Part shown: piece by piece, positions 7,811-29,217 of the stretch
Layout of the letters: each line of letters starts with the position of its first letter
How positions within the stretch are numbered: position 1 is the stretch's first letter
Source of the DNA: Beijerinckiaceae bacterium
GTDB lineage: Bacteria; Pseudomonadota; Alphaproteobacteria; Rhizobiales; Beijerinckiaceae
Length of the DNA stretch: 64,000 nucleotides
Direction of reading: 5' to 3'
NCBI GenBank assembly: GCA_027531565.1
Contig: JAPZSB010000007.1
Coordinates: 310,001-374,000, forward strand
Translations under genes and position numbers: made by a program
Notes under the pieces: generated by a model
Databases searched by the model: none
The model's input: the letters and a program-made list of their open reading frames with translations, nothing else
Told to the model about the DNA's origin: nothing

Positions 7811-8698
7811 TTATTTCAGCGGGCCGTAGGTGGCTCCGGCGGGCGGCGGGATATCGTCGGGAACGAAGAAATCCGGCGCAAGGGGCTGGGTCGGATCGAC
7901 GCGGTAACGGTCGAAATCCGTCACGCCCTCGCCGGCGAGGAACGTGTCATCGATGATGAAATTGCCGGTGAAGCTGCGGGCATCCTTGGTGAGGATGACA
8001 TGGGCCGCATCGGCGAGGATGTCCGGCGAGCGGCTGGAGCGCATCAGCGCATCGCCGCCGAGGATGTTCTTCACGGCCGCCGTGGCAATGGTGGTGCGCG
8101 GCCAGAGCGCGTTGACCCCGATCTTGCCGCGCGTCTCGCCGGCCAGGCCCAGCACGACAAGGCTCATGCCGAACTTGGCCATGGAATAGCCGGTATGGCC
8201 GGCAAACCATTTCGTCTTCATGTCGAGCGGCGGCGAGAGCATCAGGATATGCGGGTTCGACGCCTTGGCGAGGTAGGGCAAGGCCGAGCGCGACACGAGA
8301 TAGGTGCCGCGCGCATTGATCTGGTGCATCAGGTCGAAGCGCTTCATCTCCAGAGCCGCGACCGGCGCGAGATTGATGGCGCTGGCATTGTTGATGACGA
8401 TGTCGATCCCGCCGAAATGCTGCGCCGCCTTGGCCATCGCGGCCTCGACCGCCGCATCCTCGCGGATGTCGAGCTGGAGCGGCAGGGCCTTGCCACCGGC
8501 CTTCTCGATCTCTTCCGCGGCCGTGAAGATCGTGCCTTCGAGCTTCGGATGCGCTTCCGCCGTCTTGGCGGCGACGACGATATTCGCGCCGTCTGCCGCC
8601 GCGCGGAGGGCGATGGCAAGCCCGATGCCCCGCGAGGCCCCGGTGATGAAGAGGGTCTTGCCCTGCAGGCTGGTGGTGGTCATGGCGTCGGTTTTCAC
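7811..8698 (-). CDS. Short-chain dehydrogenase/reductase, HSDL2-like
   Basis: The Rossmann motif TGASRGIG is near residue 20, NNASAI follows, and the catalytic YSMAK holds the Tyr and Lys. The segment after the core (FLAGEGVTDFDRYRV...PDFFVPDD) is the pattern of hydroxysteroid-dehydrogenase-like 2 SDRs. NAD(P) oxidation of a 3-hydroxyacyl or related substrate fits the neighbours but is inference. The GTG start at 8698 has a GGGGA sequence 5 bases upstream. An ATG 5 codons later lacks one. It lies 14 bp after the enoyl-CoA hydratase gene and probably forms an operon with it and the acyl-CoA dehydrogenase. Confidence 0.88.
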   Translation of the reverse strand: MKTDAMTTTSLQGKTLFITGASRGIGLAIALRAAADGANIVVAAKTAEAHPKLEGTIFTAAEEIEKAGGKALPLQLDIREDAAVEAAMAKAAQHFGGIDIVINNASAINLAPVAALEMKRFDLMHQINARGTYLVSRSALPYLAKASNPHILMLSPPLDMKTKWFAGHTGYSMAKFGMSLVVLGLAGETRGKIGVNALWPRTTIATAAVKNILGGDALMRSSRSPDILADAAHVILTKDARSFTGNFIIDDTFLAGEGVTDFDRYRVDPTQPLAPDFFVPDDIPPPAGATYGPLK

Positions 8699-8712: not shown

Positions 8713-9465
8713 TCAGGATTTCGGTTTGGACAGGAAGGCCTCGAAGGCGGCGCGCGCCTCGGCGGAGCCCAGCCTCTCGGCGAAGGCCGCAGCCTCCTCA
8801 TCGATCCGCGCCAGAAGCGGCGCCGGATCGCCCCGCATCAGACGGCGGGAAATGGCAACGGCCTCGCGCGGCTTGGCGGCGATGCGCGCCGCGACGGCAA
8901 GAGCCTCGGCCTCGAGATCGCCGCTGGCGACGATCCTGTTCACCAGCCCGGTCTCGCGGGCGCGGGCCGCATCGAAGCGCTCGCCCATGACCAGCATCTC
9001 GAAGGCGAGACGCTGGCCCATGAGCTGCGGCACGATCAGGCTCGACCCGGCTTCGGGGACGAGAGCGAGATCGACGAAGGGCGTAGCGAAGACCGCGCGC
9101 TCCGAGGCAAGCGCATAGTCGCAATGGAGGATCATCGTGGTTCCGATGCCGATGGCCCCGCCATCGACCGCCGCCACCAGCGGTTTCCGGTTGGCGACCA
9201 GCGCCCTGAGGAAGGCGAGGATCGGGCCGCCGAGGCTGCCGCTCATCGCGAAGCCGATGAAGTCCTTGATGTCGTTGCCGGCACAGAAAATGCCCGGCTG
9301 GCCGAGGATCAGGATGGCACCGATGCCGGCATCCGCATTGGCCGCTTCGATCGCCTCGGTCAGGGCGGAATACATCGCACCGGTCAGGGCGTTCTTCTTC
9401 TCGGCCCGGTTGAGGGTGAGCACGAGGACGGCGCCCTCGCGGCGCACAAGCACGGGATCGGACAT
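8713..9465 (-). CDS. Enoyl-CoA hydratase/isomerase family protein
   Basis: This crotonase-fold protein of 250 residues hydrates or isomerises enoyl-CoA thioesters in beta-oxidation-like pathways. It shows the oxyanion-hole segments FCAGNDIKDF and AAVDGGAIGIGTTMILHCDYALA, and the downstream LVPEAGSS that carries the acidic residue in many homologues. Substrate chain length cannot be read from sequence. It is separated by 9 bp from the upstream acyl-CoA dehydrogenase and 14 bp from the downstream SDR gene, so a single three-step acyl-CoA operon is likely. Confidence 0.9.
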   Translation of the reverse strand: MSDPVLVRREGAVLVLTLNRAEKKNALTGAMYSALTEAIEAANADAGIGAILILGQPGIFCAGNDIKDFIGFAMSGSLGGPILAFLRALVANRKPLVAAVDGGAIGIGTTMILHCDYALASERAVFATPFVDLALVPEAGSSLIVPQLMGQRLAFEMLVMGERFDAARARETGLVNRIVASGDLEAEALAVAARIAAKPREAVAISRRLMRGDPAPLLARIDEEAAAFAERLGSAEARAAFEAFLSKPKS

Positions 9466-9474
9466 GGCGAACTC

Positions 9475-11262
9475 CTATTCGGCGGCGCTGGCAAAGGCCG
9501 AGGTGATCGATTCGGCCCCCTCGACCACCGTGGTCTCGAGGCCCTCGGCGCCGACAGCGAGATTCTCGGCAAAGAAGCGGGCATCGCGGATGCGGGATTC
9601 GTGCCGCGGATCCGTCTCGCCGGCATGGCGTGCGGCGGCGGCGGCCATGGCTTCGTCGGCAAGGAAGGCGCCGCCGGCCGCAAGCGCGAAGAGGCGCAGA
9701 TAGGGCGTCGCGCCGGCCAGAGCCGCGTTCGGATTGCCCTTGAGCGCGGCGAGCATGAAACCGGTGGCACGTTCCAGCGCATCGACGGCACGGTCGATCC
9801 GGCTGCCGATGGCGTTGAGCGCCGGATCGTTGAAGGCGCGGGCGCGTTCGGCCGAGGCCCGGTAGCCGGCGATCATCGCAGCGACACGCTTCCCGTCCGA
9901 GAGCGGCAGCTTCCGGGTGACGAGGTCAATCGCCTGGATCCCGTTGGTGCCCTCGTAGATCGCGAGGATGCGGGCATCGCGGTAATGCTGGGCGGCACCG
10001 GTCTCTTCGACGAAGCCCATGCCGCCATGGATCTGGACGCCGAGCGAGGCGACCTCGATTCCGATATCGGTGGCGAAGGCCTTGGCCACCGGCGTGAGCA
10101 TCGAGGCTTCCTCATGCGCGATACGGCGGGCCTCTTCGTCCTCCAGCCGGTGATGCCGGTCGAGGCCCGCCGCCGTGGCGAAGCACAACGCCCGGGCCGC
10201 CGCGATCTTGGCGCGCATCTCCATCAGCATGCGCTTGATATCCGGGTGCTCGATGATCGGCGAGGCGGCCGGCGCCCCGACAGCGCGGCCCTGCTTGCGG
10301 TCACGCGCGTAGGACAGCGCCTGCTGGTAGGCGCGGTCGGCAATCGCGACGCCCTGCACACCGACGCCGAGGCGGGCATTGTTCATCATCGTGAACATGC
10401 AGGCGAGGCCCTTGTTCTCCTCGCCGATGAGATATCCTACAGCGCCACCGGCATCGCCGAAGATCATCGTGGCGGTGGGCGAGGCATGGATGCCGAGCTT
10501 GTGCTCCAGCGCGTGGCAGCGCAGGTCATTGCGGGCGCCGAGGCTGCCATCCGCGTTGACGAGGAATTTCGGCACGAGGAACAGCGAGATGCCGCGCGTG
10601 CCGGCCGGCGCATCCGGCAGTCGGGCAAGGACGAGATGGATGATGTTCTCCGTCATCTCGTGGTCGCCATAGGTGATGAAGATCTTCTGCCCGAAGATCC
10701 GGTAGCTGCCATCCGCGGCCCGTTCGGCACGGCTGGTCAGCAGGTTGAGATCCGAGCCGGCCTGCGGCTCGGTCAGGTTCATCGTGCCGGTCCATTCGCC
10801 GGCAATGAGCTTCGGCAGGTAGGTCTGCTTGAGATGGTCCGTGCCATGGGCGGTCAGCGCCTCGACGGCGCCGACGGTGAGAAGCGGGTTCAGCGCGAAG
10901 GCCATGTTGGCGGCATTCCAGATTTCGCTGCAGGCCACGCTGAGCAGCGTCGGCAGGCCCTGCCCGCCGAATTCCGGATCGGCCGCGAGGCTGGCCCAGC
11001 CGCCGGCGGCCCAATCGGCATAGGCTTCGGCGAAGCCGGCCGGCATCCGGACCGTGCCGTCGACAAGGCGGGCCATCTCCTTGTCGCCCACCCGGTTGAG
11101 CGGCGCGAGCCGGCCCTCGGCGAACTTGGCGGCCTCGTCGAGAATGGCCTCTGCCACGCCATCGGCGAGATCGGCATAGAGCCCCGAGGCGATGCCCTGC
11201 TCGAGCCCGGCCACGTGCCGCATGGCGAACAGGATATCCTCGACTGGCGCGCGATAGGTCAT
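9475..11262 (-). CDS. Acyl-CoA dehydrogenase, long DmdC-like subfamily
   Basis: The FAD flavoprotein oxidises acyl-CoA to enoyl-CoA and hands electrons to ETF. At 595 residues it is longer than classic acyl-CoA dehydrogenases and has the extra C-terminal domain of the DmdC/AcdA group. Motifs seen are the FAD/substrate loop NLTEPQAGSDL and the catalytic-base region IYEGTNGIQAIDLVTRKL. DmdC proper acts on methylmercaptopropionyl-CoA, but the subfamily is broad, so that substrate is not claimed. It is the first gene of the minus-strand unit, and an 18-bp palindrome lies 98 bp upstream (11360-11377), nearly identical to one at the ETF-QO promoter. Confidence 0.92.
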   Translation of the reverse strand: MTYRAPVEDILFAMRHVAGLEQGIASGLYADLADGVAEAILDEAAKFAEGRLAPLNRVGDKEMARLVDGTVRMPAGFAEAYADWAAGGWASLAADPEFGGQGLPTLLSVACSEIWNAANMAFALNPLLTVGAVEALTAHGTDHLKQTYLPKLIAGEWTGTMNLTEPQAGSDLNLLTSRAERAADGSYRIFGQKIFITYGDHEMTENIIHLVLARLPDAPAGTRGISLFLVPKFLVNADGSLGARNDLRCHALEHKLGIHASPTATMIFGDAGGAVGYLIGEENKGLACMFTMMNNARLGVGVQGVAIADRAYQQALSYARDRKQGRAVGAPAASPIIEHPDIKRMLMEMRAKIAAARALCFATAAGLDRHHRLEDEEARRIAHEEASMLTPVAKAFATDIGIEVASLGVQIHGGMGFVEETGAAQHYRDARILAIYEGTNGIQAIDLVTRKLPLSDGKRVAAMIAGYRASAERARAFNDPALNAIGSRIDRAVDALERATGFMLAALKGNPNAALAGATPYLRLFALAAGGAFLADEAMAAAAARHAGETDPRHESRIRDARFFAENLAVGAEGLETTVVEGAESITSAFASAAE

Positions 11263-11359: not shown

Positions 11360-11377
11360 TAGTTCATATATAAACTA
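11360..11377. promoter_or_regulatory. 18-bp palindromic operator candidate, acyl-CoA dehydrogenase operon
   Basis: TAGTTCATATATAAACTA is a near-perfect dyad (8 of 9 pairs). It differs at one base from the palindrome at 29193-29210 upstream of ETF-ubiquinone oxidoreductase. It sits in an AT-rich island in the 243-bp divergent gap between the acyl-CoA dehydrogenase and sua5 genes. Both linked genes act in acyl-CoA oxidation, so a TetR- or GntR-type fatty-acid regulator is likely, but the protein is not identified in this window. Confidence 0.6.
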
Positions 11378-29188: not shown

Positions 29189-29217
29189 TGAATAGTTCAT
29201 ATGTAAACTAAATTCAA
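29189..29217 (-). promoter_or_regulatory. Promoter of ETF-QO gene with palindrome between -35 and -10
   Basis: On the minus strand TTGAAT (29217-29212) and TATTCA (29194-29189) are 17 bases apart. Nearly all of the spacer is the operator-like palindrome TAGTTCATATGTAAACTA at 29193-29210 (plus-strand reading). A protein bound there would block RNA polymerase directly. The implied transcript begins about 37 nt before the ATG at 29144. The palindrome matches the acyl-CoA dehydrogenase site at 17 of 18 bases. Confidence 0.5.
29193..29210. promoter_or_regulatory. 18-bp palindromic operator candidate, ETF-QO gene
   Basis: TAGTTCATATGTAAACTA has a dyad with 7 of 9 pairs and is identical to the site at 11360-11377 except for one base. 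It lies 49 bp before the ETF-QO start in a divergent gap that also faces the uracil-DNA glycosylase gene. I saw no third copy in this window. Confidence 0.6.

Follow-up and report, generated by a model that had tools for sequence, protein, structure and literature searches.

The palindrome described here is very probably the operator of a MarR-family dimer, MarR-A, which would repress a regulon for beta-oxidation and ETF-dependent electron transfer and would be relieved by a fatty acyl ligand; I put the probability of this reading at roughly 0.86. When fatty acids are absent, MarR-A would bind over the promoter and repress, and when they are present a long-chain acyl-CoA or a free fatty acid would release it. 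Upon release, more electrons would enter ETF and, in step, more would leave it for the quinone pool. I infer binding, repression and ligand release from the overlap of the palindrome with promoters, from the general behaviour of MarR proteins and from the example set by FadR, PsrA and FadP. Joint control of input and output makes sense because several acyl-CoA dehydrogenases are served by ETF and its membrane oxidoreductase, according to the available part of PMC8593149.

The window, a stretch of 64,000 nucleotides, corresponds to C13:310001-374000 of the source genome, which comprises 3.67 Mb in 13 contigs. It carries two near-identical palindromes of 18 bp, which read directly as TAGTTCATATATAAACTA at positions 11360-11377 and as TAGTTCATATGTAAACTA at positions 29193-29210. 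Both had been pointed out in a first-pass annotation, the positions of which proved exact, and their likeness had been judged improbable by chance. The shuffles bear this judgement out: when up to three mismatches are allowed, TAGTTTANNNNTAAACTA matches the window at these two places only, while in 100 dinucleotide shuffles of the window the mean number of matches was 0.01 and two were never reached. Both sites sit between divergent genes (Table 1). The first, which is also found before orthologous operons in relatives, is centred about 106 bp upstream of the ATG of the acyl-CoA dehydrogenase gene (11262, minus strand) and has a Sua5-type gene, so named from sequence reading, on its right. The gene order of the operon that it precedes, acd-ech-sdr, recurs in one relative (L052). 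The second is centred about 57 bp upstream of the ETF-QO ATG (29144, minus strand), with a gene of the uracil-DNA glycosylase superfamily (Pfam) on its right.

Table 1. Palindromes and genes of the source genome (G000). Locations with two dots are positions in the window; the others are contig positions.
Feature	Location	Strand	Basis or remark
18-bp palindrome, putative operator before acyl-CoA dehydrogenase operon	11360..11377		Direct reading; minus-strand reading TAGTTTATATATGAACTA
18-bp palindrome, putative operator before ETF-QO gene	29193..29210		Direct reading; also before ETF-QO in relatives
Acyl-CoA dehydrogenase (acd), 595 aa, gene 1 of operon	9475..11262	-	ORF; Pfam acyl-CoA dehydrogenase domains
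Enoyl-CoA hydratase/isomerase (ech), gene 2 of operon	8713..9465	-	Pfam ECH_1
Short-chain dehydrogenase (sdr), gene 3 of operon	7811..8698	-	Pfam adh_short
ETF-QO, 558 aa	27468..29144	-	ORF; name from sequence reading
MarR-A, 159 aa	G000:C13:286178-286657	+	Outside the window, about 23 kb to its left
Site before etfB-etfA-hbd	C3:24252
Site before FadD-type long-chain acyl-CoA ligase gene	C12:670852
Site before acyl-CoA dehydrogenase-thiolase-FadJ/B operon (fadE-fadA-fadJ)	C13:601885
Site before small DUF2147 protein gene	C4:274971

Matches to the palindrome are not scattered over the source genome. A scan with TAGTTCATATGTAAACTA at up to three mismatches returned six places, some of which were matched on both strands; its reversed control matched nowhere. 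The six strong sites precede the acd operon, ETF-QO, etfB-etfA-hbd, fadD, fadE-fadA-fadJ and a DUF2147 gene. Hbd and the thiolase pass a curated NCBIfam cut-off; the names of EtfB, EtfA, FadD, the dehydrogenase and FadJ come from best matches that lie below theirs. The first-pass annotation had proposed that one regulator links the dehydrogenases that reduce ETF with ETF-QO, and the presence of the same site before etfBA, fadD and fadE-fadA-fadJ strongly supports this proposal, as do sites before the same kinds of genes in relatives. Sites stand before fadD, fadE/acd, fadA/fadJ and the etf genes, as in a fatty-acid degradation regulon; the predicted regulon comprises fatty-acid activation (fadD), beta-oxidation (fadE/acd, fadA, fadJ, ech and hbd) and ETF transfer (etfBA and ETF-QO). 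A seventh, weaker site, CAGTTTAGTCATGAACTA at C2:11195, was found with a looser pattern that gave 35 matches genome-wide against 68 for its reversed control. It is centred about 70-90 bp, depending on the start codon, before a DUF2780-like gene whose match is just below the Pfam cut-off. This site is probably real too, since three loci of relatives (L054, L058 and L062) likewise have a site followed by a gene of this kind.

The palindrome was then followed in 60 genomes of the family, the source genome included: 31 of them carry it at one mismatch or fewer, and reversed controls gave no match. Outside the source genome, 52 of 60 sites lie, by manual count, at beta-oxidation or ETF genes, namely 27 at a fadE-type operon, 14 at ETF-QO, 8 at the acd operon and one each at etfB, at fadD and at another acyl-CoA dehydrogenase gene. 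One site assigned to the acd operon (L107) was so counted though only ech and sdr genes follow it. The eight uncounted sites comprise the three at DUF2780-like genes mentioned above, one at a DUF2147 gene (L055), one at a phasin-like gene (L088), one at a zinc-type alcohol dehydrogenase gene (L093) and two unassigned ones, of which one has an unnamed ORF (L096) and the other has etfB 2.6 kb off (L071). The targets of sites in fetched loci were verified by tblastn; gene calls in these loci came from a simple codon-score script, which made some starts too long and called the AT-rich loci of genome G039 badly. The sites are kept in a close relative: G026, of the same genus, has fadE and acd sites at one mismatch or fewer and a weaker site before ETF-QO. 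G039, a genome of 2.3 Mb with 43-46% G+C around its sites, retains three, at fadE, etfB and acd.

When a species collection was scanned for exact copies of the 20-bp form ATAGTTYAYATRTRAACTAT, at least 118 loci were returned. Among the 118 matches listed, 86 are at fadE, ETF-QO, etfB or acd and come mainly from Methylobacterium, Methylorubrum, Microvirga, Bosea and unnamed Hyphomicrobiales; two more (L288 and L327) are cut off, with the expected neighbours, and 30 lie outside the group. Two Beijerinckiaceae MAG loci (L295 and L317) encode EtfB proteins 97-98% identical to that of the source genome, which therefore belongs near those MAGs. As judged from these comparisons, the palindromes mark a predicted beta-oxidation/ETF regulon of the Beijerinckiaceae in the broad sense. 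That they are a repeat arisen by chance, or a structural element that no regulator reads, is scarcely credible: their conservation at the same genes already refutes such a reading, and the chance rate of 0.01 per window and the silence of the reversed controls at one mismatch or fewer in 60 genomes point the same way.

The core of the palindrome is TAGTTYAYATRTRAACTA, often extended to AGATAGTTYAYATRTRAACTATCT. In an alignment of 49 oriented sites, six of them from the source genome, the core is accompanied by symmetrical A/T-rich flanks, and CTTG is favoured 15-18 bp upstream. Of the 89 sites listed from the species scan, 43 have a TTG whose first base is at -19 or -18 relative to the core, and the next commonest offset is found in 8. 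This spacing would place the -10 element inside the palindrome, and RNA polymerase would then be blocked by a protein bound there; the predicted operator often covers the -10 region of the promoter. The -35 spacing is hard to make out at the two window sites, where overlap with the -10 element is suggested by analogy with the aligned sites.

The first-pass annotation had noted that the window holds no regulator gene for the palindrome. None was found there, and the candidate favoured here, MarR-A, is encoded outside it. MarR-A matches the Pfam models MarR_2 (68.5 bits) and MarR (61.8 bits), both above cut-off, and shares 49-74% identity with the three other sequences of its alignment. Regulator genes were listed for MerR in the source genome, for TetR in seven genomes and for MarR and GntR in four. 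In G039, which is poor in regulators, four MarR proteins are reciprocal best matches of MarR proteins of the source genome, one of these being MarR-A, and two of the other three pairs I take to be LdtR-like and PetP-like. Of the MarR proteins of the source genome, MarR-A is the one that was profiled over the 60 genomes.

Orthologues of MarR-A (more than 180 bits) occur in 34 of the 60 genomes, two further genomes with homologues of only 84-90 bits being left uncounted. When sites at one mismatch or fewer are considered, 29 genomes have both site and MarR-A, 5 have MarR-A only, 2 have a site only and 24 have neither (Fisher p 1.1e-9). Sites with two mismatches were sought in the 29 genomes without a closer one, and adding those at beta-oxidation genes changes the four numbers to 34, 0, 3 and 23, respectively (Fisher p 1.1e-13). 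All five MarR-A genomes without closer sites have such two-mismatch sites, and all seven loci concerned lie before fadE or ETF-QO. At two mismatches the reversed control matches 5 of the 29 genomes, versus 8 for the motif, and it is therefore the place of a match, not its existence, that carries weight; in G021 and G028, two-mismatch matches lie at none of the genes tested. Sites at beta-oxidation genes occur in 3 of the 26 genomes without MarR-A, namely G023 and G043 (one mismatch or fewer) and G059 (two mismatches). Assembly gaps may explain the missing MarR-A in G023 (92% complete) and G059 (95%); G043, which is 98% complete, has sites and only a 90-bit homologue of MarR-A. Since the ETF-QO gene is kept in 24 of these 26 genomes, the joint absence of MarR-A and site does not reflect mere loss of the pathway.

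The ETF-QO promoter (250 bp upstream of the gene) was examined with a weight matrix whose 44 training sites included none from ETF-QO. The examination covered 30 of the 34 MarR-A genomes, G000, G014, G037 and G052, all four already known to have a site there, being omitted, and 27 ETF-QO loci in the 24 genomes without MarR-A. Each of the 30 MarR-A genomes has one ETF-QO match, 66-89% identical. The palindrome precedes ETF-QO in 17 of these 30 and is missing there in 13, versus a single occurrence (G023) among the 24 genomes without MarR-A. On a tree of ETF-QO from 57 genomes, which leaves out G006 and G021 (no ETF-QO match) and G057 (match in two pieces), the site label requires 10 changes and the MarR-A label 13, gain and loss not being distinguishable. 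Independent pairs on supported branches gave about five changes in the same direction, none in opposite directions and two ties (sign test p 0.0625, the pairs being too few for a firmer result). These repeated parallel changes argue that the co-occurrence does not come from one clade. Across the genomes compared, the predicted sites, the beta-oxidation/ETF genes and MarR-A go together.

A real regulon whose palindrome is read by a TetR-family protein is distinctly improbable, though TetR proteins govern fatty-acid degradation in other proteobacteria, as reported in the accessible portion of PMC5343134. The best candidate in the source genome is L148, beside an mdh-sucC-like cluster (neighbours assigned by eye), and G039, the reduced genome that kept three sites, has two TetR matches, one of them related to L148. 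However, the L148-type TetR, the one TetR of the source genome that was profiled, tracks the sites loosely over the 60 genomes (32 with both, 13 with the TetR only, 5 with a site only and 10 with neither; p 0.014, or 0.14 with sites at one mismatch or fewer). Moreover, the L148 locus has no palindrome at up to four mismatches, and the TetR locus of G039 has two matches at four, one of which is inside the TetR gene itself. As a separate observation, G039 also encodes a weakly matching TetR-type protein (L164:1718-2428, on G039:C50) that matches none of the compared TetR loci; my guess is that it is COQ9-like.

A LiuR-like MerR-family gene lies near the fadE operon in eight of the site loci from relatives and in six further loci, and its product could be imagined to read the palindrome. 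The source genome, however, has sites but no fadE-type MerR among its two MerR_1 matches, one of which is beside an IHF-like gene and the other beside a copper-type ATPase gene (neighbours assigned by eye). This MerR was set aside for that reason, and its being the reader of the palindrome is highly improbable. The MerR genes near fadE-fadA-fadJ in L057, L060, L066, L068, L086, L089, L092 and L110 perhaps provide a second, local layer of control, one that the source genome would lack.

Autoregulation is common in the MarR family. In 7 of the 30 genomes (out of 34) in which the MarR-A promoter was examined, the palindrome is present at two to four mismatches, with its centre 49-118 bp upstream of the start; shuffling each of these seven promoters 200 times never gave so good a match. 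The other 23 promoters have no palindrome, that of the source genome among them, where the best match within 150 bp has eight mismatches. In a comparison set, 2 of 82 other regulator loci have a match at up to four mismatches in 600 bp. The TetR or GntR regulator of which the first-pass annotation had thought, with the palindrome at its own promoter, has given way to a MarR protein as the best candidate, one whose promoter carries the palindrome in those seven genomes and not in the source genome.

Distant genomes also associate the palindrome with MarR genes. Among the 30 listed perfect 20-bp palindromes from outside the group, 14 are at the start of a MarR-type gene, when about 0.3 would be expected (binomial 1e-20). 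Thirteen of these were found by script and one (L292) by reading of a fused ORF; in L325 the palindrome is found 22 bp into the longest ORF. Fifteen MarR-like ORFs in all lie near these listed palindromes, one of which (L300) was left uncounted, its palindrome being past the gene end. The two closest of the listed proteins, from a Candidatus Eremiobacterota MAG (L304) and a Chloroflexi MAG (L309), are 40% identical to MarR-A. Together with L248, they have the VTKGNxxGLxDRL stretch of MarR-A, which is absent from the other 14 MarR proteins of the source genome in the alignment (15 of its 31 MarR_2 matches, the 31 including other winged-helix proteins). By these gene contexts, the palindrome is a putative general MarR-type operator across phyla. 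Such generality, and the look-alike pairs just upstream of at least one other MarR gene of the source genome (C12:506306), would suit a reading in which another of its MarR proteins, or several jointly, bind the sites. This is improbable: among the four MarR proteins that are reciprocal best matches between G039 and the source genome, it is the recognition helix of MarR-A that matches those of the distant, palindrome-bearing L304, L309 and L248.

MarR-A as the repressor can be compared with known systems. In the part of a proteobacterial regulon survey that is available (PMC5343134), fatty-acid degradation is assigned to FadR (GntR family), PsrA (TetR) and FadP (TetR), FadP being unique to the betaproteobacteria among the classes studied. 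PsrA and FadP each place many fatty-acid degradation genes under one regulator, as proposed here for MarR-A, and FadR of the Enterobacteriales and Vibrionales likewise controls fatty-acid degradation genes (PMC5343134, same portion). PsrA and FadP are TetR proteins, however, and FadR is a GntR protein, whereas the candidate here belongs to the MarR family. The PsrA and FadP regulons include ETF genes, and their operator differs from the palindrome described here; FadR has an acyl-CoA ligand and again a different operator. FabT of streptococci, enterococci and lactococci is a MarR-family lipid regulator that is autoregulated, but it controls fatty-acid synthesis, with acyl-ACP as ligand, according to the accessible text of PMC13046290. 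MarR-A scores 32 bits on the FabT NCBIfam model, the cut-off of which is 200. Its best relative of solved structure is 3BOQ, a MarR-family protein (E 1.5e-18). CouR, a MarR protein with an acyl-CoA-type ligand, exerts local control of coumarate catabolism, and its PDB entry 6c28 is a weak sequence relative of MarR-A (E 7.1e-7).

A literature search, largely without access to subscription papers and regulon databases, returned no MarR-family regulator for beta-oxidation in this group; coverage being partial, such a regulator may have been described earlier. It is likely that MarR-A represents an undescribed master repressor of beta-oxidation and of the whole ETF path in a large alphaproteobacterial family, where it would take the place of the TetR and GntR proteins known from elsewhere and, in some members, reach phasin-like and DUF2780-like proteins. 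If so, a fatty-acid degradation regulator could be named for Methylobacterium, Microvirga, Bosea and their kin, and a MarR protein would be doing the job that falls to GntR and TetR proteins in the available part of the regulon survey (PMC5343134). ETF and ETF-QO would be put under one switch with the fad genes, with a defined candidate operator and protein, and the phasin-like and DUF2780-like members would link fat burning to carbon storage.

Several minor observations concern the outlying sites. A gene for a small DUF2780/DUF2267-like protein follows the palindrome in the source genome (L020:4232-4713) and in L054, L058 and L062, and a DUF2147-type gene does so in the source genome (L018:8041-8427) and in one relative (L055:3416-3796). 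In another relative a phasin-like gene (L088:3472-4025; Pfam match below cut-off) comes after the palindrome, which hints at a link with storage granules. The MarR gene at G000:C12:506306-506684 (L230, L010) is closely preceded by two look-alike palindromes in tandem, TTGTTCAGGATTGAACAA and ATGTTCAACATTGAACAA, which are likely its own operators. Finally, two adjacent palindromes, TGGTTCGACATCAAACTA and TAGTTTGATATCGAACTT, lie at G000:C9:35869-35906 (L021), with a MarR gene about 1.3 kb away.
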